Assembly (NCBI GenBank): GCA_938035125.1
Contig: CALHNS010000033.1
Coordinates: 1-35,863, forward strand
Length of the DNA stretch: 35,863 nucleotides
Source: an uncultured Granulosicoccaceae bacterium
GTDB taxonomy: Bacteria > Pseudomonadota > Gammaproteobacteria > Granulosicoccales > Granulosicoccaceae
Direction: 5' to 3'
Shown here: positions 12,704 through 34,700 of the stretch, one piece after another
Layout of the letters: the number at the start of each line of letters is the position of its first letter
Numbering within the stretch: the first letter of the stretch is position 1
Notes under the pieces: model-generated
What the model was told of the DNA's origin: nothing
Database searches by the model: none
What the model saw: the letters and a program-made list of their open reading frames with translations, nothing else
Made by a program: the position numbers and the translations under genes

Positions 12704-13885
<1,182 letters not shown>

Positions 13886-18555: not shown

Positions 18556-18580
18556 AAAAACGCTGTATTAATCAGCGTTT
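18556..18580 (-). terminator. Intrinsic terminator of the tricarboxylate catabolic operon
   Basis: An 8-bp perfect stem (AAACGCTG 18558-18565, CAGCGTTT 18573-18580) with a 7-nt loop overlaps the stop of the HpaI-like gene. Read on the minus strand it runs into a T-run (GTTTTTG), the normal form of an intrinsic terminator. Read on the plus strand the T-run is only three, so it may weakly serve the convergent regulator gene as well. Confidence 0.75.
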
Positions 18581-19353
18581 GATAAATGTTCAGCTGCACG
18601 ATTAGCAGCTTCCCGCATGTTTCTTGCGAATAACGTAACATCGATTTCAGTGGCAATAAAACTGGCGCCGATATCACGGCACTGAGTTTGCAGTTGTTCA
18701 TCTAACGTTAAGATGCCGCCTGCTTTGCCAGAGGCAATGATTTTCTTCATGGTATCGCGTACCGCGTCGTACACTTCATCTGCTCCGGCTTGATCAAGGT
18801 AACCCATATCGGCGGCAAGATCGGCCGGCCCGATGAATACACCGTCAATACCTTCAACAGCCAAAATTTCATCTAATGCAGCAATGCCTTTAAGGTTTTC
18901 CACTTGCACTAATAAACATATTTCATCGCGTGCTGTGGTGAGATAATCATCGATACCAGAAAATTGCGAAGCTCGTGCTAACGCAGAACCCACCCCGCGA
19001 ATTCCATGCGGCGGATAGGTTACCGCGTTCACAAGCTGTTGCGCTTGTTCAGCGCTTTCCACCATGGGTATCAAAAGAGTTTGAGCGCCTGCATCCAGCA
19101 GCTGTTTTATTATCCACACTTCGCCAATAGGCGGACGAACGATGGCATGGCTGCTGGAGGCTTCAATGACTTGCAGCTGAGCGGTAATTGAGCGTAAATC
19201 GTTCGGCGCGTGTTCTGCATCGACCAAAACCCAATCAAAACCTGCGTTGGCGCTGATTTCAGCAACATAGGGAGAGGCTAAACCTAACCAGCAACCTAAC
19301 TGCAATTTGCCTTTGTTAATGGCTGCTTTAAACGGATTGTGAGGTGCTGGCAT
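18568..19353 (-). CDS. HpcH/HpaI-family class II aldolase
   Basis: The 261-residue enzyme is a metal-dependent aldolase that cleaves 4-hydroxy-2-oxo acids to pyruvate plus an aldehyde. The active-site pattern of E. coli HpcH is present at matching spacing: His48 in VDAEHAP, Arg73 in IVRPP, and the metal ligands Glu152 in LVQVENLKG and Asp178 in GPADLAADMG. The frame stays open to 19521, but the upstream 56 residues (Arg/Tyr/Lys-rich) do not belong to the family. ATG at 19353 begins the conserved MPAPHNPFKAAINKG. It is the last gene of the operon, 80 bp after the aconitase gene and before a terminator. In this context it probably splits the 2-oxo acid made by the preceding aconitase and dehydrogenase. 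Confidence 0.92.
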   Translation of the reverse strand: MPAPHNPFKAAINKGKLQLGCWLGLASPYVAEISANAGFDWVLVDAEHAPNDLRSITAQLQVIEASSSHAIVRPPIGEVWIIKQLLDAGAQTLLIPMVESAEQAQQLVNAVTYPPHGIRGVGSALARASQFSGIDDYLTTARDEICLLVQVENLKGIAALDEILAVEGIDGVFIGPADLAADMGYLDQAGADEVYDAVRDTMKKIIASGKAGGILTLDEQLQTQCRDIGASFIATEIDVTLFARNMREAANRAAEHLSNAD

Positions 19354-19433
19354 TATAGCAATTCTCTTGATGTTTGAAAAAGGGAAACGCGGTCTTACGT
19401 CCACTTTTAACTTAATTAAATAGAGTGATTTAA

Positions 19434-22031
19434 TTACAACATGTTTTTTAATAAGGAGGGAAGTATTCCACCCATGCGCAAAGTAGCAACTTCTTGGTGT
19501 GTATGTACGTCGGCACAGCAAGCGATTGACTTACGCATGCCATCAGGTTTTACTATATCAACTGATAGTTTGAGCTGGGGTTTCAAGGCCATCTCAGGTA
19601 CATCAATTTCGAAACGATCCGCTGCGGTTATCTGCGCATCTTTTGGGGAATACGCATCGATAATTTGAATAGGCAAGATGCCCATGCCGATAAGATTCGT
19701 GCGATGAATTCGTTCAAAGCTTCTCGCTATAACGGCTCTTACACCCAGTAACGCAACACCTTTTGCAGCCCAATCTCGACTTGATCCCATCCCATAACGT
19801 TCGCCAGCTAAAATAACGCACGATTGAGATTGTTTTTCATAGTGCCAAGCGGCTTTGTAGATCGGTAATTCAGACCCGTTTTCAAGTTTTGTATAGGCAG
19901 GAGGAATGGATGCTCCCATACAGTTTATGGCTTGTGTATTTGTGAATAAACCCCGCAACATCACCTCCCAGTTTCCACGATAAGAGGCGTACACATTTAG
20001 ATTATTTTTCTTAGCCCCTCTTTGTAACAGCCATTGTCCAGCCTCACTGTTTGGGTTTATTGCACCAGCAGGTGATATATGATCTGTGGTCATATCATCA
20101 CCGAGTACCAGTAAAGGGCTGGCTGAATATCGACCTAATCGACAGGGTTCCTCAGCGGAGACAAACTTCGGTGGCCGCAGTTGTATAGAGTTTGCGTTCC
20201 AAGGAAAACAAGGTTTGTCAGAGGCTTCGATGGCATGCCATTCTGCCGAGTCGTTAGCACGAGTAAATGCACTAGGAACATCGGCATTACGGTAACACTC
20301 AGATAATGTTTGTTGTATCTGTGTTTCACTAGGCCACAAATCGCGTAAATAAACCGGGTTTCCATTCGGTTCATACCCGATAGGGTCTGCTGTTATATCA
20401 CCAGCTAACTGCCCTTTGAGCGCATAAGCGATGACTAATGGCGGCGATGCAAGAAAACATAAATCAAGTTTTGGGTGAACACGACCTGGAAAATTACGAT
20501 TGCCTGATATAACAGCGGATACGGCTTTGCCTTGCTCCAAGGCTTCTTCAATTAATTCAGGCAATGATCCTGAATTACCAATGCATGTTGTGCAGCCATA
20601 GCCAACAATATCAAAACCAATAGCGGCAAGATCATCAAGCAGCCCAGCCCGTTTTAAGTAAACCCCTGCCGATGTTGAGCCCGGAGCTAATGAGGTTTTC
20701 ACCCAAACTGGCGGCTTTAATCCTTTGGCTCTGGCATTGCGAGCAAAAAGACCTGCTGCGATGAGTAAGCTTGGAGCGCTGGTATTGGTACAGCTGGTGA
20801 TAGCTGCAACGCCAACGGCACCATCGGGTACTGTTTCAGTTGAATCCGGGTTAAGCTTGCGCTTTATGTTCTCTTCTAACGCTTGCATCACCTGTGATAT
20901 TGGGTGTGTGTCTTGGGGTCTGGTTGGGCCTGCTACACAGGCGTTTACTAGATCAAGCTGAATTTTGATACGGCGATCAAATTTAGGTGTTTGCTTGGGG
21001 TCAAACCATAACCCCTGTGCACGAAATATCGGTTCGATGCAATCAGTAAGTGATGCATCTCTTGCTGTGCGCGATAGATACGATACTGATTCATTATCCA
21101 CTGGAAAAAAACCAGTTGATGCGCCGTATTCTGGCGCCATATTTGCAATGACGGAGCGCTCATCCGCACTCAATGTAGATAAACCTGGCCCGAAGAATTC
21201 GACAAAGCATCCGGTTACATCAAGTTTACGCAGTTGATTGGTTATCTCAAGCGCAAGATCGGTGGCTAATGTACCTGGATTAAGCGCACCGGTTAGTTCA
21301 ACCCCAACAATACTTGGAAACGCAATGGACACAGCTTGCCCAAGCATGACGCTTTCTGCTTCCAACCCTCCAACGCCCCAACCCAAAACACCAATACCGT
21401 TGATCATAGGGGTATGGCTATCGGTACCCAGCATCATATCGGGATGGGTAAAACCATCGGGTTGGAACACCACGATAGACGCTAATTGTTCAAGATTTAT
21501 GGTGTGCATAATGCCAGAACCCGGTGGGTATACCGTTAAGTTATCCATCGATAACGCAGCCCATTTCATAAACGCGTATCGCTCAGTGTTTCGATCGAGC
21601 TCCATGCGTTGATTAATCACTATGGCATTGTTTGTTGCGTATTTATCCACCGCTACTGAATGATCGATACAAACATCCACCGGTATTTTTGGGGCCAAAC
21701 TATGCGGATCTCTCTTCGCGTCTGCAACAACGTCTCGCATAGCCGCTAAATCTGCCAGTGCGGGTGTACACGTGGTGTCATGCATCAATATACGGTTTGG
21801 TGTAAATAAGAATTCGAAACTTGATGGTTTGTGTTCCAGCCAAGCATCTACGGCCACTAACACATCGGTTGTGTCAGAGCTGGTGCGAACATGATTCTCA
21901 ATCAGTAGCCTTAATACATGAGGCAGCTTTGGCAAACGTTCGCCAAGAAGTAAGGGGAGGTCAATAAATGTTTTTTGACCGGCAGCCGTGTTTAAAGACA
22001 CTTCGGCGGGGTGAAAATTTGTCTTGGCCAT
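19434..22031 (-). CDS. Divergent aconitase-family hydratase
   Basis: The 865-residue protein has the full AcnA-type domain order and the three 4Fe-4S ligands: Cys414 in TSCTNTSAPS, Cys480 and Cys483 in GYGCTTCIGNSG. It keeps GTDSHTPMINGIGVLGWGVGG (201-221), TTDHISPAGAI and the catalytic-serine loop ERYGMGSSRDWAAKG. It therefore probably interconverts a tertiary and a secondary hydroxy tricarboxylate through the enoic acid. It differs from housekeeping AcnA at a normally strict block: RGTFANIR is RGLFTNTQ (693-700), so an Arg is Gln700. It is also shorter than AcnA (~890) and similar in size to AcnD. Lying in a TctABC/dehydrogenase/aldolase operon with no citrate-cycle or prp genes, it is probably specific for another substrate. 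The ribosome site is weak. Confidence 0.9.
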   Translation of the reverse strand: MAKTNFHPAEVSLNTAAGQKTFIDLPLLLGERLPKLPHVLRLLIENHVRTSSDTTDVLVAVDAWLEHKPSSFEFLFTPNRILMHDTTCTPALADLAAMRDVVADAKRDPHSLAPKIPVDVCIDHSVAVDKYATNNAIVINQRMELDRNTERYAFMKWAALSMDNLTVYPPGSGIMHTINLEQLASIVVFQPDGFTHPDMMLGTDSHTPMINGIGVLGWGVGGLEAESVMLGQAVSIAFPSIVGVELTGALNPGTLATDLALEITNQLRKLDVTGCFVEFFGPGLSTLSADERSVIANMAPEYGASTGFFPVDNESVSYLSRTARDASLTDCIEPIFRAQGLWFDPKQTPKFDRRIKIQLDLVNACVAGPTRPQDTHPISQVMQALEENIKRKLNPDSTETVPDGAVGVAAITSCTNTSAPSLLIAAGLFARNARAKGLKPPVWVKTSLAPGSTSAGVYLKRAGLLDDLAAIGFDIVGYGCTTCIGNSGSLPELIEEALEQGKAVSAVISGNRNFPGRVHPKLDLCFLASPPLVIAYALKGQLAGDITADPIGYEPNGNPVYLRDLWPSETQIQQTLSECYRNADVPSAFTRANDSAEWHAIEASDKPCFPWNANSIQLRPPKFVSAEEPCRLGRYSASPLLVLGDDMTTDHISPAGAINPNSEAGQWLLQRGAKKNNLNVYASYRGNWEVMLRGLFTNTQAINCMGASIPPAYTKLENGSELPIYKAAWHYEKQSQSCVILAGERYGMGSSRDWAAKGVALLGVRAVIARSFERIHRTNLIGMGILPIQIIDAYSPKDAQITAADRFEIDVPEMALKPQLKLSVDIVKPDGMRKSIACCADVHTHQEVATLRMGGILPSLLKNML

Positions 22032-22055
22032 TTTAAGCTGGCTGTTTAATAAAAA

Positions 22056-22127
22056 TTACCAGCGGTGCAACGTGACAGTAACTGTAGGTGCATTTGTACT
22101 GCTTGCGTGTTCGGCTGGCTTATTCAT
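22056..22127 (-). other. Possible 23-codon linking ORF between kinase and aconitase genes
   Basis: An ATG overlapping the stop of the kinase gene by 4 nt (ATGA) opens a 23-codon frame (MNKPAEHASSTNAPTVTVTL, then HRW and a stop at 22056-22058) ending 24 nt before the aconitase ATG. It resembles no known peptide. It could couple translation across the 92-bp gap, since the aconitase gene has a weak ribosome site, or it could be chance. Confidence 0.25.
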
Positions 22128-23410
22128 GTTAATCCACTCATTTGAGCAATCGCTTTAGAGAAAAAATTATCTGCTCCAAAATTGCCTGATTTAAGTGCCA
22201 AGGTTACTTTTTGTTTGCCATTAATACGAAGCATCGGTATGCCAGGGTCGATTTCAGGACCGATTAACATGGCTTCAACCTGGGTTAGTGAGGTAACCGC
22301 TTGCGCAACCGCGCCAGAAGTTTCTCCGCCAGCCACAACCATGTTGGTGTAACCGGCTTCAATTAATCGGCACGCGGTTTTACTGAATAAGCCATCTAAA
22401 GCCGCTGAAACTTCCTCCTGCCCGTACTGAGCTTGCAAAGCGTTTATGTCTTCTTGGCTAGAAAATGAATACACCAAAGGAGCTGAATTAGGATGATCGT
22501 TAAAAAATTCGAACAAGGTTTCATCGTTCACCTTGCCTTGCATGACTTTATTCACATCGATTACATAATTCGGCTTATTTTCAGCGTAAACACGCACTTG
22601 CTCGCGCGTTGCCCCCGAACACGAACCCACTAGAATGGCCGAAGGGCCTTCCGTGATGGACCAAGGTTCTCGCTGCACTGTTGATTGGGTACGATTAACA
22701 AAGTTACCAGGCAGCCCCATCGCAACGCCTGAGCCACCAGTTAATAATTTTGTACTGGCAAGAGCTTTAGCGATAGTTAATAGATTCTCTTCACTTACAG
22801 CGTCTACCACACAAAAGACATGGCCCTGTTCTTTGTTGAGTTGTATTGCCTCGGTTAATTCAGCAGGCCCCTCGCTCACGGTTGGCAAACCAACATGGCC
22901 AACCGAACCTTCACACTGCAATGAGAGCCAACGGCGTATATCAGAATCGATCATGGGGGTTACTGGATGCAGTTGCATACCGCTTTCATTTAATGGCTTA
23001 TCCCAAACAAATAAATTCCCTTGGTATACCGTGCGGCCTGCTGCAGGAAATGCTGGGCACACCACAACACCATTGACATCGAGTGCTTTTGCCAAAGCTT
23101 CAGCTACCGGGCCAATATTTCCCTGTGGAGTAGAATCAAACGTTGAACAATACTTAAAAATGATTTGCTCACAACCCTGAGCGAGAAGCCATGTAAGTGC
23201 TGCCAGTGATTCTTTAACGGCTTCATCCACTGGCGCGGATCGGCTTTTTAATGATACGACGCCTGCTTCTATATCGGACGATACATCTTTTGTTGGAATA
23301 CCTGAAAATTGCGCTGTGGTTAAACCACCCTCAGGGGATACGCCTTTTGCTAGGGTATTTGCGATATCACTTGCGCCGGTAAAATCATCGGCTATGACTC
23401 CAATAAGCAT
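22124..23410 (-). CDS. OtnK-like four-carbon acid sugar kinase (DUF1537 family)
   Basis: The 428-residue kinase matches 3-oxo-tetronate kinases (OtnK) closely: IADDFTGASDIANTL at the N terminus, FKYCSTFDSTPQGNIGPV, VVCPAFPAAGRTVYQG, DKPLNESGMQLHPVTPM, then the nucleotide-binding half with LVGSCSGATREQV and VVAGGETSGAVAQAV. OtnK phosphorylates 3-oxo-tetronates in D-erythronate/L-threonate degradation. The partner genes of that route (OtnC decarboxylase, OtnI isomerase, NAD-dependent C2 dehydrogenase) are absent here, and a GG loop (TGGSGVAMGLPG) adds nothing to specificity. Its role in the operon, after a racemase-fold protein and before aconitase, is unclear: it may phosphorylate a C4 branch product or act on a different 3-oxo acid. 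It lies 14 bp downstream of the racemase gene. Confidence 0.9.
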   Translation of the reverse strand: MLIGVIADDFTGASDIANTLAKGVSPEGGLTTAQFSGIPTKDVSSDIEAGVVSLKSRSAPVDEAVKESLAALTWLLAQGCEQIIFKYCSTFDSTPQGNIGPVAEALAKALDVNGVVVCPAFPAAGRTVYQGNLFVWDKPLNESGMQLHPVTPMIDSDIRRWLSLQCEGSVGHVGLPTVSEGPAELTEAIQLNKEQGHVFCVVDAVSEENLLTIAKALASTKLLTGGSGVAMGLPGNFVNRTQSTVQREPWSITEGPSAILVGSCSGATREQVRVYAENKPNYVIDVNKVMQGKVNDETLFEFFNDHPNSAPLVYSFSSQEDINALQAQYGQEEVSAALDGLFSKTACRLIEAGYTNMVVAGGETSGAVAQAVTSLTQVEAMLIGPEIDPGIPMLRINGKQKVTLALKSGNFGADNFFSKAIAQMSGLT

Positions 23411-23424
23411 AGGTTAATCAACTT

Positions 23425-24105
23425 TCATGAAAGGTTTGAGGGTATTTCTAGAATCTTTGAGCGCATTTTTTTCACCGCAGCTTCAGGGCTGTTGAGAATG
23501 GGTTGGTCGGTAAGGGCTCTGCACGCAGAACTTGCCCGAGCCATTGAAAAATGCGCTAGCAATATGGCATCGGCTTGCTTTACTTCTGAAACTTTCTGAG
23601 CGATCAACTCGTTATGCATCGCTTCATCGCCTTGGTGCAAAGCCTCTAAAGCGCCTTGAGCAAATAACACCTCTAATGTTGCCTTCGATTCTTTTTCGGC
23701 CGCATTGATTTTAAATTCTGATTGCATACCTGCAACAGCGGGTTCAAAGGTATAAATTAACACCAAATTCTCACCCAATGCCAACGCATTGTCGAACATC
23801 GCCTCATTGGGTTTTAACACCGGTATGGATTGGCTATCGGCAACCTTCTCTATCGCCTCGCCAAAAGCCGAGCAGGTGTACAGTATTCCGTCAGAGCCAA
23901 TGGTGTTCGCATAGTGCGCTAACGCGCTAATGCGATTAAACATGGGTGCTTCTAGTTTTTCATGCTTGCGTCTATCAACAGATAACGCATCATCTAACAA
24001 TGATACGGCTTCAGCTTCAGGCCAGTGATCTTGGAAAGCGCCCATAACAGGATCTATGGCAACACGCGTTGCATGAATAAGTGCAACTCTTGGCACCTCA
24101 TGCAT
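23425..24105 (-). CDS. Asp/Glu-racemase-fold enzyme (AMDase/hydantoin racemase type)
   Basis: The 226-residue protein has the two-domain racemase fold: VALIHATRVAID at the N terminus, the first catalytic-Cys segment GILYTCSAFGEAIE (Cys78), and the second-half segment ADAILLAHFSMARAS. The second cysteine expected in true racemases is missing there (Ser187 with Cys195 some residues later). One-cysteine members include arylmalonate decarboxylases and related isomerases, so a decarboxylase or isomerase activity is more likely than amino-acid racemisation. GGAGATG nine bases before ATG 24105 supports the start. It lies 75 bp downstream of the dehydrogenase gene and 14 bp upstream of the kinase gene. 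Related genes often accompany TctC-type transporters. Confidence 0.8.
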   Translation of the reverse strand: MHEVPRVALIHATRVAIDPVMGAFQDHWPEAEAVSLLDDALSVDRRKHEKLEAPMFNRISALAHYANTIGSDGILYTCSAFGEAIEKVADSQSIPVLKPNEAMFDNALALGENLVLIYTFEPAVAGMQSEFKINAAEKESKATLEVLFAQGALEALHQGDEAMHNELIAQKVSEVKQADAILLAHFSMARASSACRALTDQPILNSPEAAVKKMRSKILEIPSNLS

Positions 24106-24180
24106 AGACGTTCATCTCCAAACAGGCATTATCGAGGATTTCAATTCTGGCAAGCCTATTTGAATAGTCAAAGTGAGCCA

Positions 24181-25251
24181 TTACTGGGCGATGGAGCTTG
24201 CCACCATTTTACCAAAATCATCCGTATTAACCTGCCCACCCAGATCACGTGTTCGCTTAGCAGGATCAGCAAGAACGGTATCAACGGCATTTGCAATGGC
24301 GCTTCCAGCATCCAGTAATTTATTGTTTTCTCGCTGCTCGCCCAGCCAAGACAACATCATGGCAGCAGATAATATCAGTGACGTTGGGTTAGCGATATTT
24401 TTAGTGGCAATATCGGGTGCTGAGCCGTGTTGCGCTTGGGCGCAGCATAAGCCGGTTTCAGCGTTTGCATTGATTGAACCGGCTAAGCCGATTGAACCCG
24501 ATAATTCAGAAGCTAAATCGGAGAGAATATCGCCGTAAAAGTTAGTTGCAACCACCACATCATAAATTTCTGGTTGACGTACTAATAACGCAGCGAACGC
24601 ATCCACAATCAATTCTTCGGTTTCAACTTCAGGATACTCTTTAGCTACGTTTCGAAAACACTCTAAAAATAAGCCATCCGTCATTAAAAATGAGTTGGCT
24701 TTATGAATAGCGGCCACTTTTTTTCTTCTTTGCATGGCTAGCTTGAATGCTTCTCGACAAATTCGATCGCAGGCGTGGCGAGTTATTTTACGAACTGATA
24801 AGGCCATATTCGGGTCCGGCATCATCTCCCCAACCCCTTGATGCATATTTCGATCGGGATAAAAGCCTTCAGTTGCCTCGCGCATGATGACTAAATCCAT
24901 ACCTGGGGCTTTATTGACAATAAAATCTCTGCTTCTTGCAGGGCGCACGTTAGCGTAAAGATCCAATCCCAATCGAAAACCTGCCGATACATTTCGCCCA
25001 CCTTCGTTTAAGGGTGGATAATCCATATGCGATTGTGTTCCTAGCAATACGCCATCAAATTCAGTGCGGGCTCTGTCCAGCACTTCCTCACGTAACGTAA
25101 TTCCGTATTTCTCTAGGCTTACAAAACCTGCTTCCTCTTCATGAAAAGAGAGCTTGAGGTCGAAGCGTTTGTCTGCAGCTGCCATGACATCCATCGTCGC
25201 AGAAACTATTTCTGGGCCGATACCGTCACAGGGAACTGTCATAATTCGCAT
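24181..25251 (-). CDS. Isocitrate/isopropylmalate-type beta-decarboxylating dehydrogenase
   Basis: The 356-residue enzyme belongs to the family of isocitrate, isopropylmalate, homoisocitrate and tartrate dehydrogenases, which oxidise a (2R)-malate unit and release the beta-carboxylate as CO2. Visible blocks are PCDGIGPEIV, LGLDLYANVRPA with the substrate arginines, LVIMREATEGFY, the catalytic Lys in AAIHKANSF, the metal-binding NFYGDILSDLASEL, and the NAD loop HGSAPDIATKNIANP. The REATEG block has Ala where isocitrate dehydrogenases usually have Asn (RENTEG), which hints at another substrate. In this operon it probably follows the aconitase and makes a 2-oxo acid for the HpaI-type aldolase. 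GGAG ten bases upstream supports the ATG at 25251. Confidence 0.92.
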   Translation of the reverse strand: MRIMTVPCDGIGPEIVSATMDVMAAADKRFDLKLSFHEEEAGFVSLEKYGITLREEVLDRARTEFDGVLLGTQSHMDYPPLNEGGRNVSAGFRLGLDLYANVRPARSRDFIVNKAPGMDLVIMREATEGFYPDRNMHQGVGEMMPDPNMALSVRKITRHACDRICREAFKLAMQRRKKVAAIHKANSFLMTDGLFLECFRNVAKEYPEVETEELIVDAFAALLVRQPEIYDVVVATNFYGDILSDLASELSGSIGLAGSINANAETGLCCAQAQHGSAPDIATKNIANPTSLILSAAMMLSWLGEQRENNKLLDAGSAIANAVDTVLADPAKRTRDLGGQVNTDDFGKMVASSIAQ

Positions 25252-25329
25252 CTTTTTTTAACTCCAGTTTTATTGCACTTGTTGGATCTTGATTTTTAAT
25301 TGCATCACTTCAATGAAATGATTAATGCG

Positions 25330-26856
25330 CTATGAATTTTTACTGCCAGCTTTCATTCGCGCATTCACTCGGCGGCCAAACATCATTGGAAGAACGAAAC
25401 CGGTGATTGCAATAACCCAGAGAATAATGGCCAAAGGACTGCCCACAAGCGTTGACCAATCACCATCTGAAATAGTCATCGCGCGACGTAAATTTACCTC
25501 CATTTGATTTCCCAGCAATATGCCCAAAATAACGGGCACCAGAGGTACTTCTATCTTACGTAATAACCAACCAGCAACGCCAAAACCTACCATTAACATG
25601 ACATCAAACGTTGAGCCTGTGATGCTATAGATGCCGACGAATGAAATCATGGCCACCACTGGCATCAGGATGCGCGTAGGCACCATTAACACGCGAGTGA
25701 ACAAGCCTACTAATGGGATATTCATGGCCAGTAGAATAAAGTTGGCGATGAATAGAGCCGCAATAAGCCCCCAAACCACATCTGGATTTTTGGAGAACAA
25801 CAAAGGCCCTGGGGTTATGTTGAGTTGAAGTAATACCGCCAACAAAACAGCTGTGGTGCCTGAACCAGGAACACCGAGCGCAAGCATCGGCACTAAAGCT
25901 CCACCTGATGCTGCATTGTTACCCGCTTCTGGTGCAGCCACGCCTCTTGGGTCACCCTTACCAAACGTCTCACCGTCGCGATCAACGGTTTGTTTTTCTA
26001 ATGAATAGGCTAAAAACGAACCTAATGATGCGCCTGCGCCGGGTAGAACGCCTGCAAAAAATCCCAGCCCAGTGCCTCTTGCCATGGTAGGAATGCACTG
26101 CTTTATCATTTTAAAATTGGGAAGAATCCGGCCAATTTTTGGCGCTTTGATCTCATTGTGTTTACCGGATTGATGTCGTTCGAGGAAGATAAAAACTTCA
26201 CTCAGTGCAAATAGCCCCACAATCGCAATGAGAAAATCAATACCGTCATAAAGGTGGATGTGATCAAAAGTGAAGCGCTGCGAACCGGTTTGCGAATCAC
26301 TTCCAATCATAGCGATGCCGAGGCCTAAGGCAGCAGCAAATGCCGATTTTGCTTGATTGGTTGAGGATATTCCGCCCAGCGTTGCAAACGCTACCGTAAA
26401 CAACACAAAATATTCAGCTGGCCCAAACAATAACGCGATTTTTACCAATTGCGGTGCGAGTAGTACCAACCCACAAGTAGCAACAAAGGCACCCACAAAA
26501 GATGCAACGCCAGACAATGTTAAGGCTTCTCCGGCTCTGCCTTGTTGTGCCATGGGATACCCATCCAGACACGTCATCATTGCAGGTTCATCACCTGGGA
26601 TGTTCAATAAGATGGAACTGATACGGCCGCCGTACATGGCTCCGTAGTAAACACTGGTAAGTAAAATTAACGAAGGCGTTGGCCCTAAACCTAGAGAGAA
26701 CGCAATCGGAATAAGAATGGCAACACCATTGGCAGGGCCAAGGCCTGGCAATGCGCCCATTAGAGTGCCTAGAAAGCATCCAAGAAAAGCTAGTAACAGG
26801 TTTTCTGGTGTGAGAGCAACCGCAAAGCCGTTGCCGAGTAACGCTAAAGTTTCCAT
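25330..26856 (-). CDS. tctA: Tripartite tricarboxylate transporter, large membrane subunit
   Basis: The 508-residue, ~12-helix membrane protein is the TctA permease of a TTT-type secondary transporter. The family signatures are the N-terminal GALPGLGPANGVAIL and the repeated GVLPGAGASLGSFLAY, together with GDPRGVAAPEAGNNA and GVPGSGTTAVLL. The open frame begins at 26907, but AGGAG nine bases before ATG 26856 (METLALLG) identifies the real start and avoids overlap with tctB. With TctB and the periplasmic TctC it imports di- or tricarboxylates at the expense of an ion gradient. tctB lies 13 bp upstream and the dehydrogenase gene 78 bp downstream. Confidence 0.95.
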   Translation of the reverse strand: METLALLGNGFAVALTPENLLLAFLGCFLGTLMGALPGLGPANGVAILIPIAFSLGLGPTPSLILLTSVYYGAMYGGRISSILLNIPGDEPAMMTCLDGYPMAQQGRAGEALTLSGVASFVGAFVATCGLVLLAPQLVKIALLFGPAEYFVLFTVAFATLGGISSTNQAKSAFAAALGLGIAMIGSDSQTGSQRFTFDHIHLYDGIDFLIAIVGLFALSEVFIFLERHQSGKHNEIKAPKIGRILPNFKMIKQCIPTMARGTGLGFFAGVLPGAGASLGSFLAYSLEKQTVDRDGETFGKGDPRGVAAPEAGNNAASGGALVPMLALGVPGSGTTAVLLAVLLQLNITPGPLLFSKNPDVVWGLIAALFIANFILLAMNIPLVGLFTRVLMVPTRILMPVVAMISFVGIYSITGSTFDVMLMVGFGVAGWLLRKIEVPLVPVILGILLGNQMEVNLRRAMTISDGDWSTLVGSPLAIILWVIAITGFVLPMMFGRRVNARMKAGSKNS

Positions 26857-26869
26857 GGTATCGGTGCTC

Positions 26870-27301
26870 CTAAAAACCAAATGGCCCTTTGGCAAGCGAC
26901 AAGCCAAGGATCAGATGAAAGACAACATAAATACCGACTGAGGTAAGCACGCCAGTTACGAGAGACCAAAAAGGGTGTGTGCCTAAGCGCCAGGTTAAAT
27001 AGGCGGTGGCAAATACGGTGGCGATTAAAAAACCAACCTTAGGAAGTGACCAACCGTATAACAGCATGACTACTGTTGCGGCCAGTATCTCGGTCAGCTT
27101 GTATATACCAGGCCATGCTGGCTCGGTATCAGGTCGAATGATGAAATAGATGGAGCAAAGGCCAAGCACCGTACCAACAATATATGGGAAGGCTCTGGGG
27201 CCTACCACATCGACCATAAAGCTGTCTTTTATGATGGTTGCAGCCCAAATGTAAAAGATAGCGAGTAATAACCCAAACCCGCCAAACACGCGATCACTCA
27301 T
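26870..27301 (-). CDS. tctB: Tripartite tricarboxylate transporter, small membrane subunit
   Basis: The 143-residue protein has four hydrophobic helices and the usual TctB outline, including DVVGPRAFPYIVGTVLGLCS after the first helix. It is the small membrane partner of TctA. The frame can be extended to TTG at 27319, but ATG 27301 has a purine-rich ribosome site (GGGGGA) at proper spacing, so I use that start. It is separated from tctC by about 80 bp that contain a strong stem-loop, and from tctA by 13 bp. Confidence 0.93.
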   Translation of the reverse strand: MSDRVFGGFGLLLAIFYIWAATIIKDSFMVDVVGPRAFPYIVGTVLGLCSIYFIIRPDTEPAWPGIYKLTEILAATVVMLLYGWSLPKVGFLIATVFATAYLTWRLGTHPFWSLVTGVLTSVGIYVVFHLILGLSLAKGPFGF

Positions 27302-27323
27302 GAAAATCCCCCAATGCAATTAA

Positions 27324-27354
27324 CGGATGAATCTGCACTATGCAGATTCATCCG
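27324..27354 (-). repeat. Perfect 14-bp stem-loop between tctC and tctB
   Basis: CGGATGAATCTGCA (27324-27337) and its exact reverse complement (27341-27354) flank a 3-nt loop, 28 bp after the tctC stop. There is no T-run after it on the minus strand. This arrangement is typical of hairpins that shield the 3' end of a binding-protein mRNA or partly stop transcription, giving more binding protein than permease. Confidence 0.75.
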
Positions 27355-27382
27355 CCTATCTTTAGATAACTACCTAAAATGC

Positions 27383-28369
27383 TTACTGAATAATGCCGAT
27401 TTCTTTCGACAGCTTCGTCACGTCTTCAATGCTTCCCGCAACGAATTTGTACATGTCATCGCCGAAGTTATTGAAAGGCGCAATCGCTGCATCTTCAAGA
27501 GTTTGTTGGAAGCCTTCATCTTCAACCATGGTTTGGATCGCGTTGCTCCAAAACTCTTTTGCTTCATCAGATGCGCCAGCAGGCATGTACAGACCGCGCC
27601 AGTTAGCACCGACCACATCATAGCCCTGCTCTTTAGCTGTTGGAATGTCAGGGAAATTTGCTAAACGCTCTGGCGCCATGATGGCGATGATGCGAATGTC
27701 GCCTGATTCTAGAAAACCTAACATTTCTGAGAAATCACCCGACAATGCTTCGGTAGCACCTGAAAGAAGACCTGTCATCGCCTCACCACCACCGTCGAAG
27801 GAGACATACTTCATCGTAGTAACATCTTCTAAACCAGCTTTTTGAGCAACAAGCATAGGTTTGATGTGATCAAAACTACCGATAGAAGAACCACCTGCGA
27901 TACCCACTGAGCGTGGATCTTCAAGGATGTCATCCATCATTTGAGTCAGTGTTTCGTATTTTGAATCTGACTTTACTGCGATAGCCCCGTATTCAGCACC
28001 GAATGTTGCTAGGAAATGAACGTCGTCTTGCGTAGCGCCTTCATAAATTCCTTGAGCAATTCGCGCGCTGGTACTCATCGATGCTGCAACGATAAGATTG
28101 TTATCTTCGTTACGTTCTTTAGTAACATGAGCAAAGGCTACACCGCCGCCACCACCAGACATATTGGTGACTTGCATGGAATCTTCGATTATTTTTAAAT
28201 CGAAGAGGAATTTAGCGGTTGTTCGGCAGATGAAATCCCAGCCGCCGCCAGGGTTAGACGGTGCGATACATGCAGGATTTTCGGCCTTGAAATCTTGTGC
28301 GTGCGCATTTGATACGCTGAGCATCAGTGCAATGCTCAATGTACTGGTTTGTACGATCTGTTTGATCAC
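27383..28369 (-). CDS. tctC: Tripartite tricarboxylate transporter, periplasmic binding protein
   Basis: The 328-residue protein has a Sec signal peptide (residues 1-24, ending SNAHA) and the TctC/Bug fold: the ligand-loop PSNPGGGWDFICRTTA, MSGGGGGVAFAH, AAGIAGGSSIGSFDH-type second loop, and ANWRGLYMPAGAS near the C terminus. Bug-type receptors bind carboxylates through water-bridged backbone contacts in these two loops. Translation starts with GTG at 28369, preceded by an excellent GGAGGAG site. It is the promoter-proximal gene of the catabolic operon and faces a divergent GntR regulator across 388 bp. The actual ligand would define the pathway. The tryptophan-containing GGGWDF loop resembles citrate/tricarboxylate-type TctC rather than the shorter Bug loops, but this is a weak indication. 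Confidence 0.95.
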   Translation of the reverse strand: MIKQIVQTSTLSIALMLSVSNAHAQDFKAENPACIAPSNPGGGWDFICRTTAKFLFDLKIIEDSMQVTNMSGGGGGVAFAHVTKERNEDNNLIVAASMSTSARIAQGIYEGATQDDVHFLATFGAEYGAIAVKSDSKYETLTQMMDDILEDPRSVGIAGGSSIGSFDHIKPMLVAQKAGLEDVTTMKYVSFDGGGEAMTGLLSGATEALSGDFSEMLGFLESGDIRIIAIMAPERLANFPDIPTAKEQGYDVVGANWRGLYMPAGASDEAKEFWSNAIQTMVEDEGFQQTLEDAAIAPFNNFGDDMYKFVAGSIEDVTKLSKEIGIIQ

Positions 28370-28757
28370 TTTGGTGACTCCTCCGATTTATAGATACTTT
28401 GTGCGATTTGGCAACACAGTGCCAAATCGCATATTGCACTTTTATAAATAAAAAACCAATATATTTTTTACTTTTTTTATCTTTAATTTCCGATTAGCTG
28501 CTGATTCACTAACCAAAAGTTTGGATATTTTGGTTTGAATCTCCTTCACGACGCTGTTAAATTAGCGTTTCGTTGAATTATTCTGAAAATATCCGAAGCA
28601 CAGATTTACGGTGTCAAAATATTTAATGCTGCGACAAGAAGATAGGATTTAGTGTACTTTTTATGCTAATTTCCACATTCCATCCGCTGAACAGCGAATT
28701 TAAGCTGCTCTCAAAGGACTACAGGATGAATTAACTTTCAACCAAGAGAGTTTTGTA
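28370..28757. promoter_or_regulatory. 388-bp divergent regulatory region between tctC and the GntR gene
   Basis: No gene is visible in this AT-rich region, which must hold the promoters of both tctC and the regulator. It contains the strong 12-bp inverted repeat at 28402-28431 in the tctC leader and an 8-bp inverted repeat AACCAAAA/TTTTGGTT (28511-28518, 28528-28535) containing a nested CCAAA-AG-TTTGG. A long A/T tract at 28441-28485 could bend DNA or act as an UP element. Exact -35/-10 boxes cannot be assigned with confidence. Confidence 0.6.
28402..28431. promoter_or_regulatory. 12-bp perfect inverted repeat in the tctC leader
   Basis: TGCGATTTGGCA (28402-28413) and TGCCAAATCGCA (28420-28431) are exact reverse complements around a 6-nt spacer, 33-62 nt upstream of the tctC GTG. 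It could be the operator of the divergent GntR regulator or a 5' mRNA hairpin protecting the transcript. No T-run follows, so it is not an intrinsic terminator. Confidence 0.65.
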
Positions 28758-29654
28758 ATGAACCAACGTATCCGCTCGAATGAATTGCCCGAGCGAATAT
28801 CTCATCGAATATTGCAAGAAATTGCTGTTGGCACAATGGAGGCTGGTCAGCATGTCAGCGCTCAGCAAGTGGCTGATCGTTACCGGGTATCCAGAACACC
28901 GGTAAGAGAGGCGCTAAGCTCGCTAGAAAAATGTGGTGTTCTTAAGCGTAAGACCAACCGTGGGTATTTCGTCCCTGCTGAAATTCCGAATGGTTTAAAC
29001 GAACTAATTGAAGAATATCGCCAATCTCCTGCAGATCCTTATCAGCAACTTGCCAATGATTGGGTGGCCAACCGATTGCCAGGAGAAGTCACCGAGCAAC
29101 ATTTGCGGCAAAATTACGGGTGGTCTAAAAGTAAAGTTGTTGAGTTGCTAGCTCGCGCTACCCGAGAAGGTTGGGCTGAGCGTAAAGATGGATATGGTTG
29201 GCGATTTTTGCCAGTGGCTAAAACATCGCAAGCGTTTGAACAAATATATCGACTGCGGCTTGCTATTGAACCGGCTGCTTTATTAGAGCCTACCTTTCAA
29301 TTAGATCGTAAAGTGCTAGATGAACAACGACGAATTCAATCTGGCATGTTAGAAAAAGGCGCTGACACTGTGGCGGAAGAATTGCAGCTATCCAACGGTT
29401 CGCTGTTTCATGAAGAGATTATAAAACTCTCTGGTAATCAATTTTTCTTACAGGCTTTAACGCAAGTCAATCGTATGCGTAGGCTAATGGAATACAAGGT
29501 TAAGGTTGACCCCATTCGAACGGCTGAACAATGTACTGAACATCTAGAAATTATTGATTTACTAGAATCTGGAGATATAGTTGAAGCATCTTATAAAATG
29601 CGCAGTCATCTCGCTGGGGCTCTCAAAATTAAAACATCGACTACTCTGGATTAG
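28758..29654 (+). CDS. GntR-family (FCD) regulator with a second winged-helix-like insert
   Basis: The 298-residue protein starts with a normal GntR winged helix (1-75; AQQVADRYRVSRTPVREALSSL and wing NRGYFVPAE). It ends with an FCD ligand-binding domain (about 157-290) that shows the metal-site histidines His218 (LFHEEI), His262 and His284 (MRSHL). FadR-type regulators are usually 220-250 residues long. The extra ~70 residues (85-152) look like a second winged helix: VTEQHLRQNYGWSKSKVVEL, then REGWAERKDGYGWRFLP. It is divergent from the tctC operon and is its likely repressor or activator, with the operon's substrate or intermediate as ligand. GAGAG nine bases before the ATG supports the start. 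Confidence 0.9.
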   Translation: MNQRIRSNELPERISHRILQEIAVGTMEAGQHVSAQQVADRYRVSRTPVREALSSLEKCGVLKRKTNRGYFVPAEIPNGLNELIEEYRQSPADPYQQLANDWVANRLPGEVTEQHLRQNYGWSKSKVVELLARATREGWAERKDGYGWRFLPVAKTSQAFEQIYRLRLAIEPAALLEPTFQLDRKVLDEQRRIQSGMLEKGADTVAEELQLSNGSLFHEEIIKLSGNQFFLQALTQVNRMRRLMEYKVKVDPIRTAEQCTEHLEIIDLLESGDIVEASYKMRSHLAGALKIKTSTTLD

Positions 29655-30291: not shown

Positions 30292-31470
30292 ATGCGCAAG
30301 AGCGAATTTGTATTACCCGAAGGTATGATCTATCTCGACGGCAATTCGTTGGGGCCATTGCCAAAAGCTGCGTCTGCGCGTTTACAAAAAACGGTTCAAG
30401 ATGAATGGGGTCAGCTTTTAATTAAAGGATGGAATGATGCGGGCTGGATGCATCAGCCTACAGCCATTGGTGAGCGAATTGGGCGCCTAATTGGGGCACC
30501 TGCTGGCACGGTTATGGTAGGTGATACGCTGTCAATAAAAATTTATCAGGCTCTGGCTGCAGCACTCGCCATGCGTCCTGACCGACGAATAATCGTATCT
30601 GACACTGGGAATTTTCCCACCGATTTATACATGGCTGAAGGGTTAATCAATTCATTAGACAAAGGGCATGAACTTAAGGTGGTGCCAGCTGAGTCGGTTA
30701 CCGATGCCATAGACGAATCGGTTGCGGTGTTGCTGTTAACACAAGTAGATTACCGAACGGGTCGACTGCACGATATGCAGGCATTAACAGAAAAGGCACA
30801 AGCAGCAGGCGCTGTTGTAATTTGGGATCTTGCTCATTCAGCCGGGGCATTGCCTATCGATCTTCAAGGCTGTAAGCCAGAGTTTGCTGCCGGTTGTACG
30901 TATAAATATTTAAATGCAGGCCCTGGTGCACCAGCGTTCATATACGTTCGCCCCGATATCGTTGATACCATCGAGCCTGCGCTATCTGGATGGCTTGGGC
31001 ACACAGCGCCTTTTGATTTTTCGCTACATTATCAGCCAGGTAAGGCTATTGAGCGCATGCGCGTTGGAACACCATCTGTTTTACAAATGTCTGTACTTGA
31101 AGCGGCCTTAGACATTTGGGACGATGTGTCTATCGATGAGGTTCGTGATCAATCCATTGAGCTTAGTGAGTTATTCATTCAGTTAGTCGAAAGCCGATGC
31201 TCTGAACTTACATTAATCAGCCCAAGAGATCCTCAACAACGTGGCAGTCAGGTGTCTTTTGCGTTCGATGAAGGTTATGCCGCTATTCAGGCGCTTATTA
31301 CTGATGGCGTTGTAGGAGATTTTCGTGCACCCAATGTTATGCGTTTCGGATTTACTCCGCTTTATTTAGATAAGGATGATGTGCGGCTCGCCGCTGACAA
31401 GCTGGTGAACGTTATGCAAAATAAATTATGGGCTGAAGAACGCTTTAGTGTTCGTAAGGCAGTTACCTAA
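30292..31470 (+). CDS. kynU: Kynureninase
   Basis: The 392-residue PLP enzyme hydrolyses kynurenine (or 3-hydroxykynurenine) to anthranilate (or 3-hydroxyanthranilate) and alanine. Kynureninase-specific motifs are seen throughout: IYLDGNSLGPLPKAA, WNDAGWM, TLSIKIYQAL, DTGNFPTDLYM, WDLAHSAGALPIDL with the PLP-binding Asp179, and the Schiff-base lysine Lys205 in GCTYKYLNAGPGAPAF. Length agrees with bacterial KynU (~395-420). No tryptophan 2,3-dioxygenase or formamidase gene is in the window, so the rest of the kynurenine route must be elsewhere. Its relation to the adjacent tricarboxylate operon is probably only positional. Confidence 0.93.
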   Translation: MRKSEFVLPEGMIYLDGNSLGPLPKAASARLQKTVQDEWGQLLIKGWNDAGWMHQPTAIGERIGRLIGAPAGTVMVGDTLSIKIYQALAAALAMRPDRRIIVSDTGNFPTDLYMAEGLINSLDKGHELKVVPAESVTDAIDESVAVLLLTQVDYRTGRLHDMQALTEKAQAAGAVVIWDLAHSAGALPIDLQGCKPEFAAGCTYKYLNAGPGAPAFIYVRPDIVDTIEPALSGWLGHTAPFDFSLHYQPGKAIERMRVGTPSVLQMSVLEAALDIWDDVSIDEVRDQSIELSELFIQLVESRCSELTLISPRDPQQRGSQVSFAFDEGYAAIQALITDGVVGDFRAPNVMRFGFTPLYLDKDDVRLAADKLVNVMQNKLWAEERFSVRKAVT

Positions 31471-31655: not shown

Positions 31656-31754
31656 TAATCTGAAACCTTTCAGGCATTGTTTGAGTTGTAAGGCTTAATC
31701 GATTGGCATTTTAGGTGCTTGAGGTATTAAATCTTACGATAATCGAACGTGCCA

Positions 31755-34700
31755 ATGAAATCGATACAGAATCGAGCAGTATGCTTTTCGCTATGCTGTG
31801 CAATAACATTATGCGCTTTCTCCAATGCATTGGCGCAATCAGCCACCAGTGGCGGGGTTTGGAGCGAAAAAATTGATACCCCGGTTATCGCTGTAGCCGC
31901 AGCCAATTTGCCCACCGGTAAAGTGCTTATGTGGTCCTCCAATATGCAGACCACCTTTGGCGCTGGCCCTGCAGAAACCTACACGGCCATATTCGATCCG
32001 ATTACTCGCACCAGCACACAGCGCATCGTTCGAGAGTCGCAGCACGATATGTTCTGTCCTGGCATCAGTTTGTTAGATGACGGGCGCTTGTTGATTTCTG
32101 GTGGTAATTCAGCAGGTAGCACAAGTATTTACAGCGCTGAAACTGATAACAGTTCCGTTTGGCAACGCGCGGAAGATTTAAACATTCCTCGTGGCTATCA
32201 CTCTAGCGCCATAACACCCAGCGGCGCTGTGTTCACCATCGGGGGCTCGTGGAGTGGTGGTATCGGCGGAAAGATGGGCGAAATCTGGCACGAAGGCAGA
32301 GGTTGGTTTCCATTAAGTGGATTACCCGGCAGCCTATTGCAAGAAGGAACAAATGATCCTGAAGGCGTATACCGAGAAGATAATCATGCATGGATTTTTG
32401 CAGCACCTGGCGAACGCATGTTTCACGCAGGGCCTGGCACCGCTATGCATTGGCTTGATTTGAATGGGAATGGTTCATACACCTCAGCTGGCACACGAGC
32501 CGATGATGAGTACAGCATGAACGGATCTGTTGCGATGTACGACATAGGAAAAATATTAAAAGCTGGTGGTGCGCCTGCTTATGCCTATGAAAGAACAGCG
32601 AATGCAAATTCATACATTATTGATGTGAACGGCGCACAGCCTTCGGTGCAACGCGTTGCCAACATGAAGTACCCCCGCACACTGGGCAATAGTGTTGTTT
32701 TACCCAACGGAGAAGTGATGGTAATTGGTGGCATTCCAATAGCTACCCCATTCTCCGATCAATTTTCTGTAATGATTCCAGAAATATTTAACCCTGATAC
32801 TCAAACGTGGCGCGATGCAGCAAGCATACAAGTACCTCGTAACTACCATAGCACCGCCCTATTATTGCCTGATGGACGTGTGATGGCAGCAGGTGGCGGT
32901 CAATGTGGGGATTGCGATACGAACCATTTCGATACTCAAATTTATTCACCAGAGTATTTATTCACAGCGAATGGTCAGCCCAGGCAGCGACCCACGATTA
33001 CCAACGCACCAGCAAAAGCCGATTATGGCCAAACTATTTCTGTTAGCAGCAATGGTAACGTCGATCATTATGTATTGATGAGGTTGTCCAGTGTTACCCA
33101 CAGCATTAATACGGATCAACGCCGCGTACCATTAGCCACCAGAAATACCGGTAATGGCAATTTTCAGCTGTCCATACCCACCGACCGCGGCATTGCACCG
33201 CCTGGGTTGTACATGCTTTTTGCAATGGATGCTAATGGCACTCCAAGTATTTCTAGGAACATACAAATTGGATCAGCCACTGCAACGCCTGAGGTTAATT
33301 TACCCGATCGTGACTTGGGCGCAATGGCTGTATTGAATCGTGGTAATTGGAGAATCGACAGCAACAGAGACACACGATGGAATGGAAATGAATGTGTGTT
33401 AGACGATTGTGGCCAATTCGGTTCGCCTACAGATGTGGCTGTTCCGGGTATAGAAGGAGCTACAGTGGGTGTGTACCGACCCAAACGTCGACGATTCTTT
33501 TTCGATCTAAATAACAACTTAAGTTGGGATGGTTGCACAGTAGACTTGTGCATTGACACCGTTGGTCGAGAGGGCGATTTACCTGTCATAAAAGATGGGA
33601 AGATTGGTGTGTTCAGACCCAAGAATGGGCGTTGGTTTTTCGATAAAAACGGCAACCATAGAATTGAGCGCTGTAGAATTGATGAGTGCGGTCATTTTGG
33701 TGGCCTAAACGATATTCCATTAATTAGAAATGGCAATGTAGGGGTTTTTCGCGCTAGTACTAAAGAGTGGTTTTTCGATGCTAATGGGAACATAGGGTTT
33801 GATGGATGTCATATCGATCACTGTGTGGTAGGTTTTGGCGAAGTCGGAGATAAGCCTGTGGTGAATCCTGTTACAGGCGTCATCGGTGTTTATAGGCCCA
33901 GTCAGAACACATGGTTTCTAGATTCGAACAATAACCTGCAATGGGACGGCTGTTCAGTTGATTCCTGTATCAATACCTTTGGTAATGGAAACGTTCAAGC
34001 GCTTATGGTTGAGTTGCCAGATCCTAGTGCACCATCGTTCGGCGCTGCTTTGCCTATCGGTTTACCTGAAGGTGTTGAAGCTGGCATCACTAACGCAGTT
34101 GGGGTGGTATCACTAGATGGTGAAATAAACGAATGGGAATCACTGACCGCCTTTCCCCGAGATTCTGAAAACAACTTAGCAGCATCAGAAAATCCATTGG
34201 ATTGGGACCAAGCATGGATGGCGCACGATGCACAGCATTTCTATCTTGCATATAGCAATCAGTCTTCAATCGTACGAAGCTGGGGGCAAAGTGTTTTAAT
34301 TGATTCAGACTACGATTCAGACACCGGTTTTAATCAAAGCTCAGCAATTGGAGCCGACTTTTTGATTCAGGCCAATGAGCTTTACGCGCACATTGGTGAG
34401 AATTCAGAATGGCAATGGGCACATGTTGCTACTTTGAATGTGGGCGAAAGTGATCGCTTTTTTGAAATGGCAATACCACGTGAGTTGCTAGGCAACACAG
34501 CACACTTACGCTTTTACTTTCTTGGGTCTAATGACCCCTATTCTTCTAGTGCAGAAGTTGATCTGTATCCAAATGGTGCTCATGATGCCAACGCCAGTGA
34601 GCGATTTTTCACTTACAGTGTGAATACGGGTGAGGAAAATACAGCACCTGATGTTGTATCTTCCCAGGTAACAACGCTTGAGGCGTTACCCACCAACATC

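Follow-up and report, generated by a model that had tools for sequence, protein, structure and literature searches.

A conserved gene set that pairs an isocitrate dehydrogenase-like enzyme and a racemase-fold protein with a 3-oxo-tetronate kinase in an uncultured Granulosicoccaceae bacterium

We analysed a 35,863-nucleotide stretch of DNA from an uncultured Granulosicoccaceae bacterium, a relative of marine Granulosicoccus (contig CALHNS010000033.1 of assembly GCA_938035125.1; hereafter the window, or contig C33), focusing on an operon of eight minus-strand genes that encode a tripartite transporter and a set of catabolic enzymes. The genome comprises 3.54 Mb in 111 contigs and is 92.5% complete. 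An earlier, sequence-only reading had placed the eight genes here in the order tctC, tctB, tctA, IDHL, Race, otnK, acnA-like, hpaI, where IDHL stands for an isocitrate dehydrogenase (IDH)-like enzyme and Race for a racemase-fold protein. Both the positions and the order were confirmed. The family calls were also correct, with each family scoring above its Pfam gathering score and some backed by NCBIfam models as well. The genes are as follows.

27383..28369, minus strand: TctC, periplasmic solute-binding protein of a tripartite tricarboxylate transporter, with a GTG start (PF03401, 70.2 bits versus 27)
26870..27319, minus strand: TctB, small membrane subunit (PF07331, 65.3 bits)
25330..26907, minus strand: TctA, large membrane subunit (PF01970, 509.1 bits)
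24181..25251, minus strand: IDHL, isocitrate/isopropylmalate dehydrogenase-family protein in which the loop NVSAGFR replaces SxNVxxR (PF00180, 272.6 bits)
23425..24105, minus strand: Race, Asp/Glu racemase-fold protein that retains just one of the two catalytic cysteines, the first (Cys78; PF01177, 38.2 bits versus 31)
22124..23410, minus strand: OtnK, 3-oxo-tetronate kinase (DUF1537/SBD_N-NBD_C; NF043035, 505.6 bits versus 350)
19434..22031, minus strand: AcnA-like dedicated aconitase of the HDTTC type, in which the active-site Gln is replaced by His (PF00330 and PF00694)
18568..19353, minus strand: HpaI-type aldolase (HpcH/HpaI), co-directional, with an ATG at 19353 (PF03328, 170.5 bits)

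The translation starts of two of these genes are probably internal, at the ATG at 27301 for tctB and at the ATG at 26856 for tctA.

The gene set recurs in many other bacteria, with the exception of the aldolase. We ran a gene-neighbourhood search, drawing relatives from the genome family (48 genomes), from plasmids, and from a collection of genome contigs. Loci (L numbers below; genomes carry G numbers) were included when their IDHL was at least 55% identical to that of the window. This yielded 55 loci, made up of the window, 41 of 79 genome-contig loci, 9 family loci, and 4 plasmids. Controls were 36 of the same 79 genome-contig loci, which carry other members of the IDH family. Two loci fell outside both sets (L060, at 52%, and L062, a duplicate of G043), L018 (53%) was also excluded, and L017 and L169, which form one plasmid, were counted once. 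Partners were sought by tblastn at a threshold of 1e-12 within loci truncated at roughly 10 kb or by the end of a contig, many of them short. The most conserved partners of IDHL are Race (36 loci) and OtnK (30), followed by OtnC (23), an amidohydrolase (20), TctA (18), an AcnA-type aconitase (17), an SSADH-type dehydrogenase (12), a cupin (12), a lactonase (9), RraA (8), and a solute-binding-protein (SBP)-like protein (8). HpaI was found once, in the window itself. Among the 36 controls, there were five loci with TctA, two with RraA, and one each with OtnK, OtnC, amidohydrolase, and cupin; Race, AcnA-type aconitase, lactonase, SBP-like protein, SSADH-type dehydrogenase, and HpaI were found in none. 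Fisher tests gave values of 1e-11 for Race and 7e-8 for OtnK, which are overstated, since the loci are related and many are short. An earlier tally of 56 rows, made before clean-up, had given similar counts.

The association with Race also held across whole genomes. Within the 48 family genomes, Race was present in all 11 with IDHL (in G043 and G044 on a different contig) and in 1 of the 37 without it. The nearest relatives of the operon, L022 and L105, read TctCBA-IDHL-Race-OtnK-AcnA and lack HpaI. Beyond the kin of the window, the gene set was found in rhizobia, Pantoea, Burkholderiales, and marine roseobacters, and in distant form in one actinobacterium. The actinobacterial locus (L071) is a control by identity, and its gene order (AfuABC, IDHL, Race, OtnK, OtnC, Ldh, AcnA, with RraA nearby) makes it a distant cluster of the same kind; its Race, at 26% identity, lies below detection at the tblastn threshold. 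The set is partly plasmid-borne, with 20 plasmid records carrying IDHL at 60 to 80% identity. The SBP-like partner (L015, positions 13069-13776, and relatives) is a small protein of the SBP_bac_3 family with no signal peptide evident by eye, and may act as an enzyme instead of binding a solute.

The kinase points to the lower end of the pathway. Window OtnK is 44% identical to Escherichia coli YgbK, retains the conserved blocks, and is the only OtnK above cut-off in this genome. The single OtnC match over the cut-off (282.6 bits versus 250) lies on another contig, C42 (L131:7867-9302), together with an OtnI-like gene (NF043033, 309.8 bits, just below 325; 42% identity to YgbM). There is no otnK on C42, and genes for a sugar-type ABC transporter adjoin the pair. 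In the L-threonate pathway, as outlined in PMC12540250, LtnD, OtnI, OtnK, and OtnC lead to dihydroxyacetone phosphate (DHAP). The gene set studied here shares the OtnK and OtnC families and the predicted DHAP end product with that pathway, and it differs in having IDHL and Race, often with a special aconitase, instead of LtnD and OtnI. Using one query each for LtnD, an alpha-hydroxy acid oxidase, and a SAF-domain protein (DenD was not queried), we detected no tetronate oxidant in 28 of the 30 OtnK-bearing IDHL loci. The LtnD query matched in just 2 of all 55 loci, at 23 to 28% identity, OtnI matched in one, and Pfam identified no LtnD-type dehydrogenase among the operon genes of the window. 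From these absences, we propose that the locus is an acid-sugar (tetronate)-type catabolic operon in which IDHL and Race replace LtnD and OtnI and feed OtnK and OtnC, a proposal to which we give an even chance. Two clusters contain glycolytic genes, pyk and gapN in both L016 and L017 and additionally tpiA, gpmA, and ppc in L016, in keeping with a triose phosphate as the product.

Pairs of Race and OtnK also occur without IDHL. They adjoin an alpha-hydroxy acid oxidase in L134, where OtnK is split in two pieces, and in L137, and a SAF-domain protein in L020 and L135. The SAF gene (L020:7550-8989; L135:6560-7981, where it is annotated as FlgA) lies 5' of Race-OtnK-OtnC and probably encodes another oxidant for tetronate-type acids. 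Because TctCBA accompanies the Race/OtnK/OtnC blocks of L020, L134, and L135, which have other oxidants, this transporter alone is no sign of a tricarboxylate. Such blocks favour a reading with two acids, in which aconitase and IDHL would turn a substituted citrate into a 2-oxo acid by oxidation, and Race, OtnK, and OtnC would degrade a co-imported tetronate. Some loci (L035, L043, L054, and L091 among them) have IDHL and aconitase with no OtnK or OtnC in the stretch read, and two acids would account for the failure of any linear scheme, described below. We nevertheless consider this reading unlikely, given that the first step of its tetronate branch is missing from the 28 loci without a queried oxidant unless it is encoded elsewhere.

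The distribution of the aldolase bears on the route that the sequence-only reading had put forward, in which aconitase would convert hydroxycitrate to hydroxyisocitrate, IDHL would form 4-hydroxy-2-oxoglutarate, and HpaI would cleave it to pyruvate and glyoxylate. Window HpaI scores just below the cut-off of TIGR02311 (343 bits versus 368.8). Its closest relatives in the family, at 67 to 77% identity, are in five genomes (G020, G023, G024, G025, and G030), all of which lack IDHL. Seven HpaI regions were fetched, those of these five genomes plus G039 and G040, and the gene context was worked out for the five. In three of the seven (G020, G024, and G025), HpaI stands directly 3' of an HpaH-like gene, with an HpaE-like gene upstream, and these HpaH-like genes are 58 to 63% identical to the one in this genome. 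In one more (G030), it lies near CHMI/HpaE-like genes, about 7 kb from a CHMI-like gene that is 79% identical to its counterpart here. In G023, HpaI has no hpa genes beside it and is 1.8 kb from a block of MarR, acyl-CoA dehydrogenase, FadB, and FadA genes that also flanks window HpaI. This genome has an hpaE/F/H-type cluster on contig C53 (HpaE, 789.7 bits versus 638.35; a CHMI-family protein; an HpaH-like protein, 347.8 versus 351.5) with no adjoining HpaI, and the only other HpaI-type protein found in the genome is 39% identical to that of the window. The window copy thus resembles the homoprotocatechuate aldolase in the company its relatives keep, and differs in sitting behind an aconitase gene and just under the model cut-off. 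Since HpaI is confined to 1 of 55 loci and its relatives stand beside hpa-type genes, it is probably a displaced homoprotocatechuate aldolase outside the conserved unit, although it may be co-transcribed with the operon. HpaI-type aldolases are promiscuous.

On the same two grounds, we rejected the HpaI-dependent hydroxycitrate route as the main explanation. Other observations are compatible with hydroxycitrate as substrate: aconitase and IDHL are both specialised, RraA-type genes could stand in for HpaI, the lactonase-family and amidohydrolase genes suit a lactone-forming acid, and, although HpaI is missing from the G040 operon, that genome encodes a 59% identical HpaI elsewhere (the corresponding value for G039 is 39%). 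In addition, genes weakly similar to the hydroxyaspartate aldolase BhcC (NF045642, 218.7 bits versus 690) in L105 and L107 might consume glyoxylate. Against this, minimal loci from Ruegeria (L023) and Amylibacter (L033) show no aconitase gene and no aldolase gene over the stretch read, and Garcinia or Hibiscus acid would be an unlikely main substrate for marine hosts. The scheme also provides no role for OtnK, OtnC, or Race. The sequence-only reading had itself left the kinase and racemase unexplained; both are part of the conserved core. A 3-oxo-tetronate kinase needs a CH2OH group, which hydroxycitrate and 4-hydroxy-2-oxoglutarate lack. Overall, we regard a hydroxycitrate route, with HpaI or RraA as the final enzyme, as improbable; the accompanying caveat that a related substrate was equally possible remains valid. 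The BhcC-like genes (L105:11755-12894 and L107:3241-4386) adjoin the operon in two genus members and encode proteins with an alanine-racemase fold and a D-serine-dehydratase domain. L107 also has an FMN-dependent hydroxy-acid dehydrogenase. These neighbours may point to glyoxylate or hydroxyaspartate.

IDHL reached none of the 17 listed NCBIfam cut-offs for isocitrate, homoisocitrate, isopropylmalate, and tartrate dehydrogenase families. A tartrate dehydrogenase identity was rejected, with TIGR02089 scoring 228.5 bits versus 470.4. In isocitrate dehydrogenase, the SxN motif holds the gamma-carboxylate of isocitrate. The corresponding motif is NxS in 53 of the 54 IDHL loci where it could be read and GxS in the other. 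The NxS motif extends beyond the IDHL group: the 36 control loci have SxN (16), NPS (11), or other motifs (9). Eight catalytic residues of the IDH family (R93, R103, R124, Y131, K184, D217, D241, and D245) are invariant in 12 of 12 aligned proteins. Clusters for tricarballylate (TcuAB) resemble the gene set in having a related IDH-like enzyme (45 to 51% identity, with an NPS loop in L019), TctA, and a PrpF-like tautomerase, and they differ in that no Race, OtnK, or OtnC was seen in the stretches read. TcuA/TcuB clusters of this composition were seen in L019, L140, L141, L064, L065, and L069; in a tree with long branches, L019 and L064 fall outside the clade of the 55 loci.

The invariant arginines bear on another candidate class of substrate, the pentarates (xylarate and arabinarate), which are ordinary oxidation products of pentoses. 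Here IDHL would oxidise C3, the resulting beta-keto acid would decarboxylate to a 3-oxo-tetronate, and Race would act as a C2 epimerase. The carbon balance is exact, and the lactonases are accounted for. However, a pentarate has no carboxylate beside the oxidised carbon, while R93, R103, and R124, the arginines that hold the malate core in IDH-family enzymes, are invariant, and the aconitase would go unexplained. For these reasons, we consider a pentarate very unlikely.

The aconitase likewise differs from its housekeeping relatives. It falls under the AcnA equivalog cut-off (TIGR01341, 899.9 bits versus 945), passes the wider subfamily NF009520 (1093 versus 905), and is far from the AcnD model (TIGR02333, 662.7 bits versus a cut-off of 1419.85). 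Of the 17 loci with the gene, 16 entered a tree and 15 a check of active-site residues. In the tree, a branch with 99/98 support (midpoint root) separates the 16 cluster aconitases from the rest, and the L071 aconitase is not on their side of it. The active-site Gln of aconitase touches the substrate; in E. coli AcnA this is Q89, the counterpart of Q72 in the pig enzyme. His takes its place in 15 of 15 cluster aconitases, as well as in L071 and in both AcnD proteins read, whereas Gln is kept in 10 of 10 non-cluster aconitases (E. coli included) and in a TcuA-linked row from Pelagibacter (L060). Together, the change from Gln to His in the aconitase and from SxN to NxS in IDHL suggests that the probable substrate of both is an altered acid resembling (iso)citrate or tartrate. 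This agrees with the earlier view that the operon serves to import and degrade an unusual acid, (iso)citrate-like or related, and it marks aconitase and IDHL as specialised subfamilies, distinct from housekeeping copies.

Aconitases at least 55% identical to that of the window were found only in genomes with IDHL, namely G000 (this genome), G018, G039, G040, and G044. In 24 of 26 genus members, there was a weak or split aconitase match that is probably AcnB. On this reading, the window aconitase is an accessory enzyme. A housekeeping role was rejected on the same matches and on the way its relatives track IDHL, although no AcnB was found in this genome, whose assembly is 92.5% complete. AcnD of the 2-methylcitrate cycle is likewise an Fe-S aconitase with His at the Gln position, but belongs to a separate branch of the tree. 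The substrate of AcnD, 2-methylcitrate, is the methyl counterpart of 2-hydroxycitrate, and the shared substitution therefore counts in favour of the hydroxycitrate scheme. Neither prpB nor prpC was annotated in the annotated neighbourhoods read; neither was used as a query.

The altered substrate-contact positions of both enzymes, alongside malate-binding residues that are kept, also fit an acid of the itatartarate or 2-hydroxyparaconate type. Aconitase would form 3-(hydroxymethyl)malate, IDHL would convert it to 4-hydroxy-2-oxobutanoate, and HpaI or RraA would release pyruvate and formaldehyde. 2-Hydroxyparaconate is a lactone, which matches the lactonase genes. Such acids are reported as fungal products. 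Nonetheless, this route offers no substrate to OtnK or OtnC and relies on an aldolase, HpaI, that is not conserved, making it highly unlikely.

Classical Asp/Glu racemases use two catalytic cysteines. In Race, Cys78 is conserved in 33 of 33 aligned rows, and the second cysteine motif is replaced by AHFS, AHLS, AQFS, or GQFS in all 33. A cysteine occurred between two residues upstream and five residues downstream of that motif in only two rows. An AlphaFold2 model built from a 28-row alignment (pLDDT, the predicted local distance difference test, of 93.3) matched the Asp/Glu racemase superfamily in Foldseek, at 11 to 18% identity among the matches listed. Because the second motif is absent throughout, Race probably does not work as a two-base racemase of the classical kind, and we propose that it is a ketol isomerase or epimerase of an oxo-tetronate. 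Homologues of Race (38% identity) also stand directly 3' of a 3-hydroxyacyl-CoA dehydrogenase-like gene in L136 and L139, the former also having malonyl-CoA decarboxylase and synthase genes, a different use of the Race fold.

Gene content, conservation, the membership of OtnK and OtnC in their families, and the altered residues are all observed; the reactions of IDHL, Race, and aconitase are ones that we infer, as follows. TctCBA would import a hydroxylated di- or tricarboxylate. IDHL would oxidise the malate-like part of the acid and release one carboxylate as CO2, leaving an oxo-tetronate that Race could convert into the isomer or epimer usable by OtnK. OtnK would phosphorylate the 3-oxo-tetronate at C4, and OtnC, encoded on contig C42, would decarboxylate the phosphorylated product to DHAP, which would enter glycolysis. 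The dedicated aconitase may isomerise a citrate-like form of the acid or a companion acid, broadening the intake, and HpaI, as a neighbour from the homoprotocatechuate pathway, would have no step. The carbon balance from IDHL through OtnK to OtnC would be satisfied by a C5 acid in which a malate core bears a CH2OH branch, for example 2-C-(hydroxymethyl)tartrate. By our reckoning, among malate-core acids only this compound, whose beta carbon carries both OH and CH2OH, links IDHL to OtnK.

Several points weigh against this tetronate-type pathway. We found no one linear scheme that leads from the aconitase to OtnK. After rehydration by aconitase, the beta carbon bears no OH, so the IDHL product would lack the C3 hydroxyl of an oxo-tetronate; in other words, when an aconitase product undergoes IDH chemistry, the carbonyl of the resulting 2-oxo acid adjoins a CH2, where OtnK needs OH. 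Nor can aconitase form 2-C-(hydroxymethyl)tartrate by OH migration. Either the aconitase supplies a second acid to IDHL, or the true substrate is another acid that we did not consider. To our knowledge, moreover, the proposed C5 acid is not a common natural product. OtnK is absent from 25 of 55 IDHL loci, 6 of which have the SSADH-type dehydrogenase, and its presence in 11 of 11 IDHL genomes tells little, as it is common anyway (41 of 48 family genomes). Genes of lower glycolysis are rare (Pyk in 4 and GapN in 3 of the 56 rows), and L016, the locus richest in them, has no OtnK in the stretch read. A shared regulator site upstream of the OtnC-OtnI genes on C42 was sought by eye and none was seen. 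Finally, G040 has IDHL but no OtnC match at 1e-40, in a genome that is 86% complete. The six SSADH-type loci without OtnK (L034, L047, L049, L050, L052, and L054) mostly have the cupin and often the amidohydrolase; they may represent another lower branch of this pathway.

Put together, the gene set could represent an undescribed, widespread pathway that degrades a natural hydroxy-dicarboxylate or -tricarboxylate not recognised so far and that has a HDTTC aconitase of its own, an IDH-family oxidative decarboxylase, and a one-cysteine racemase-fold isomerase, joining chemistry like that of the tricarboxylic acid cycle to the 3-oxo-tetronate route to DHAP. We place this slightly short of an even chance. 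Among the open-licence PMC articles listed on hydroxycitrate catabolism, on 3-oxo-tetronate kinase, on tetronates, and on IDH-family enzymes with four-carbon acid sugar kinases, titles and abstract openings contained no description of the set, in line with the earlier reading, which knew of no described operon of this make-up. An ascorbate pathway reportedly uses a PdxA decarboxylase, a WD40-like enzyme, and an amidohydrolase; the articles listed by the literature search showed nothing on it. Given the wide host range and plasmid carriage, the substrate would probably be an organic acid common in plants, in algae, or in dissolved form that metabolomics has missed. Three subfamilies can be recognised by sequence marks, namely the HDTTC aconitase, the NxS isocitrate-type dehydrogenase, and the one-cysteine racemase fold. 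The database records read label them, in a way that probably misleads, as aconitate hydratase AcnA, isocitrate/isopropylmalate dehydrogenase family, and aspartate/glutamate racemase family. Through its kinase end point, the pathway allows the question of substrate to be tested directly by coupling to DHAP.

Two further features lie upstream of the operon.

28434..28459, minus strand: promoter/operator-like conserved stretch TTGGTTTTTTATTTATAAAAGTGCAA, upstream of tctC; nine upstream regions were compared, and eight carry a variant of it
28758..29654, plus strand: divergent GntR/FCD regulator (PF00392 and PF07729)

The regulator is 59 to 65% identical to the regulators that adjoin the most similar operons. 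At the other end, the terminator that the sequence-only reading had assigned does have an 8-pair stem (18580-18558), but it is weak and has a poor T tail; between positions 17800 and 28800, we found 15 terminator-type sites versus a mean of 11.8 in shuffles. Rfam and tRNA scans returned no matches. Outside the operon, the window also contains an RraA-like gene (9029-9511, PF03737; 35% identity to the cluster RraA), a kynureninase-type gene downstream of the GntR gene (30292-31470, PF22580 and PF00266), and a large open reading frame of 1321 amino acids (31749-35714).

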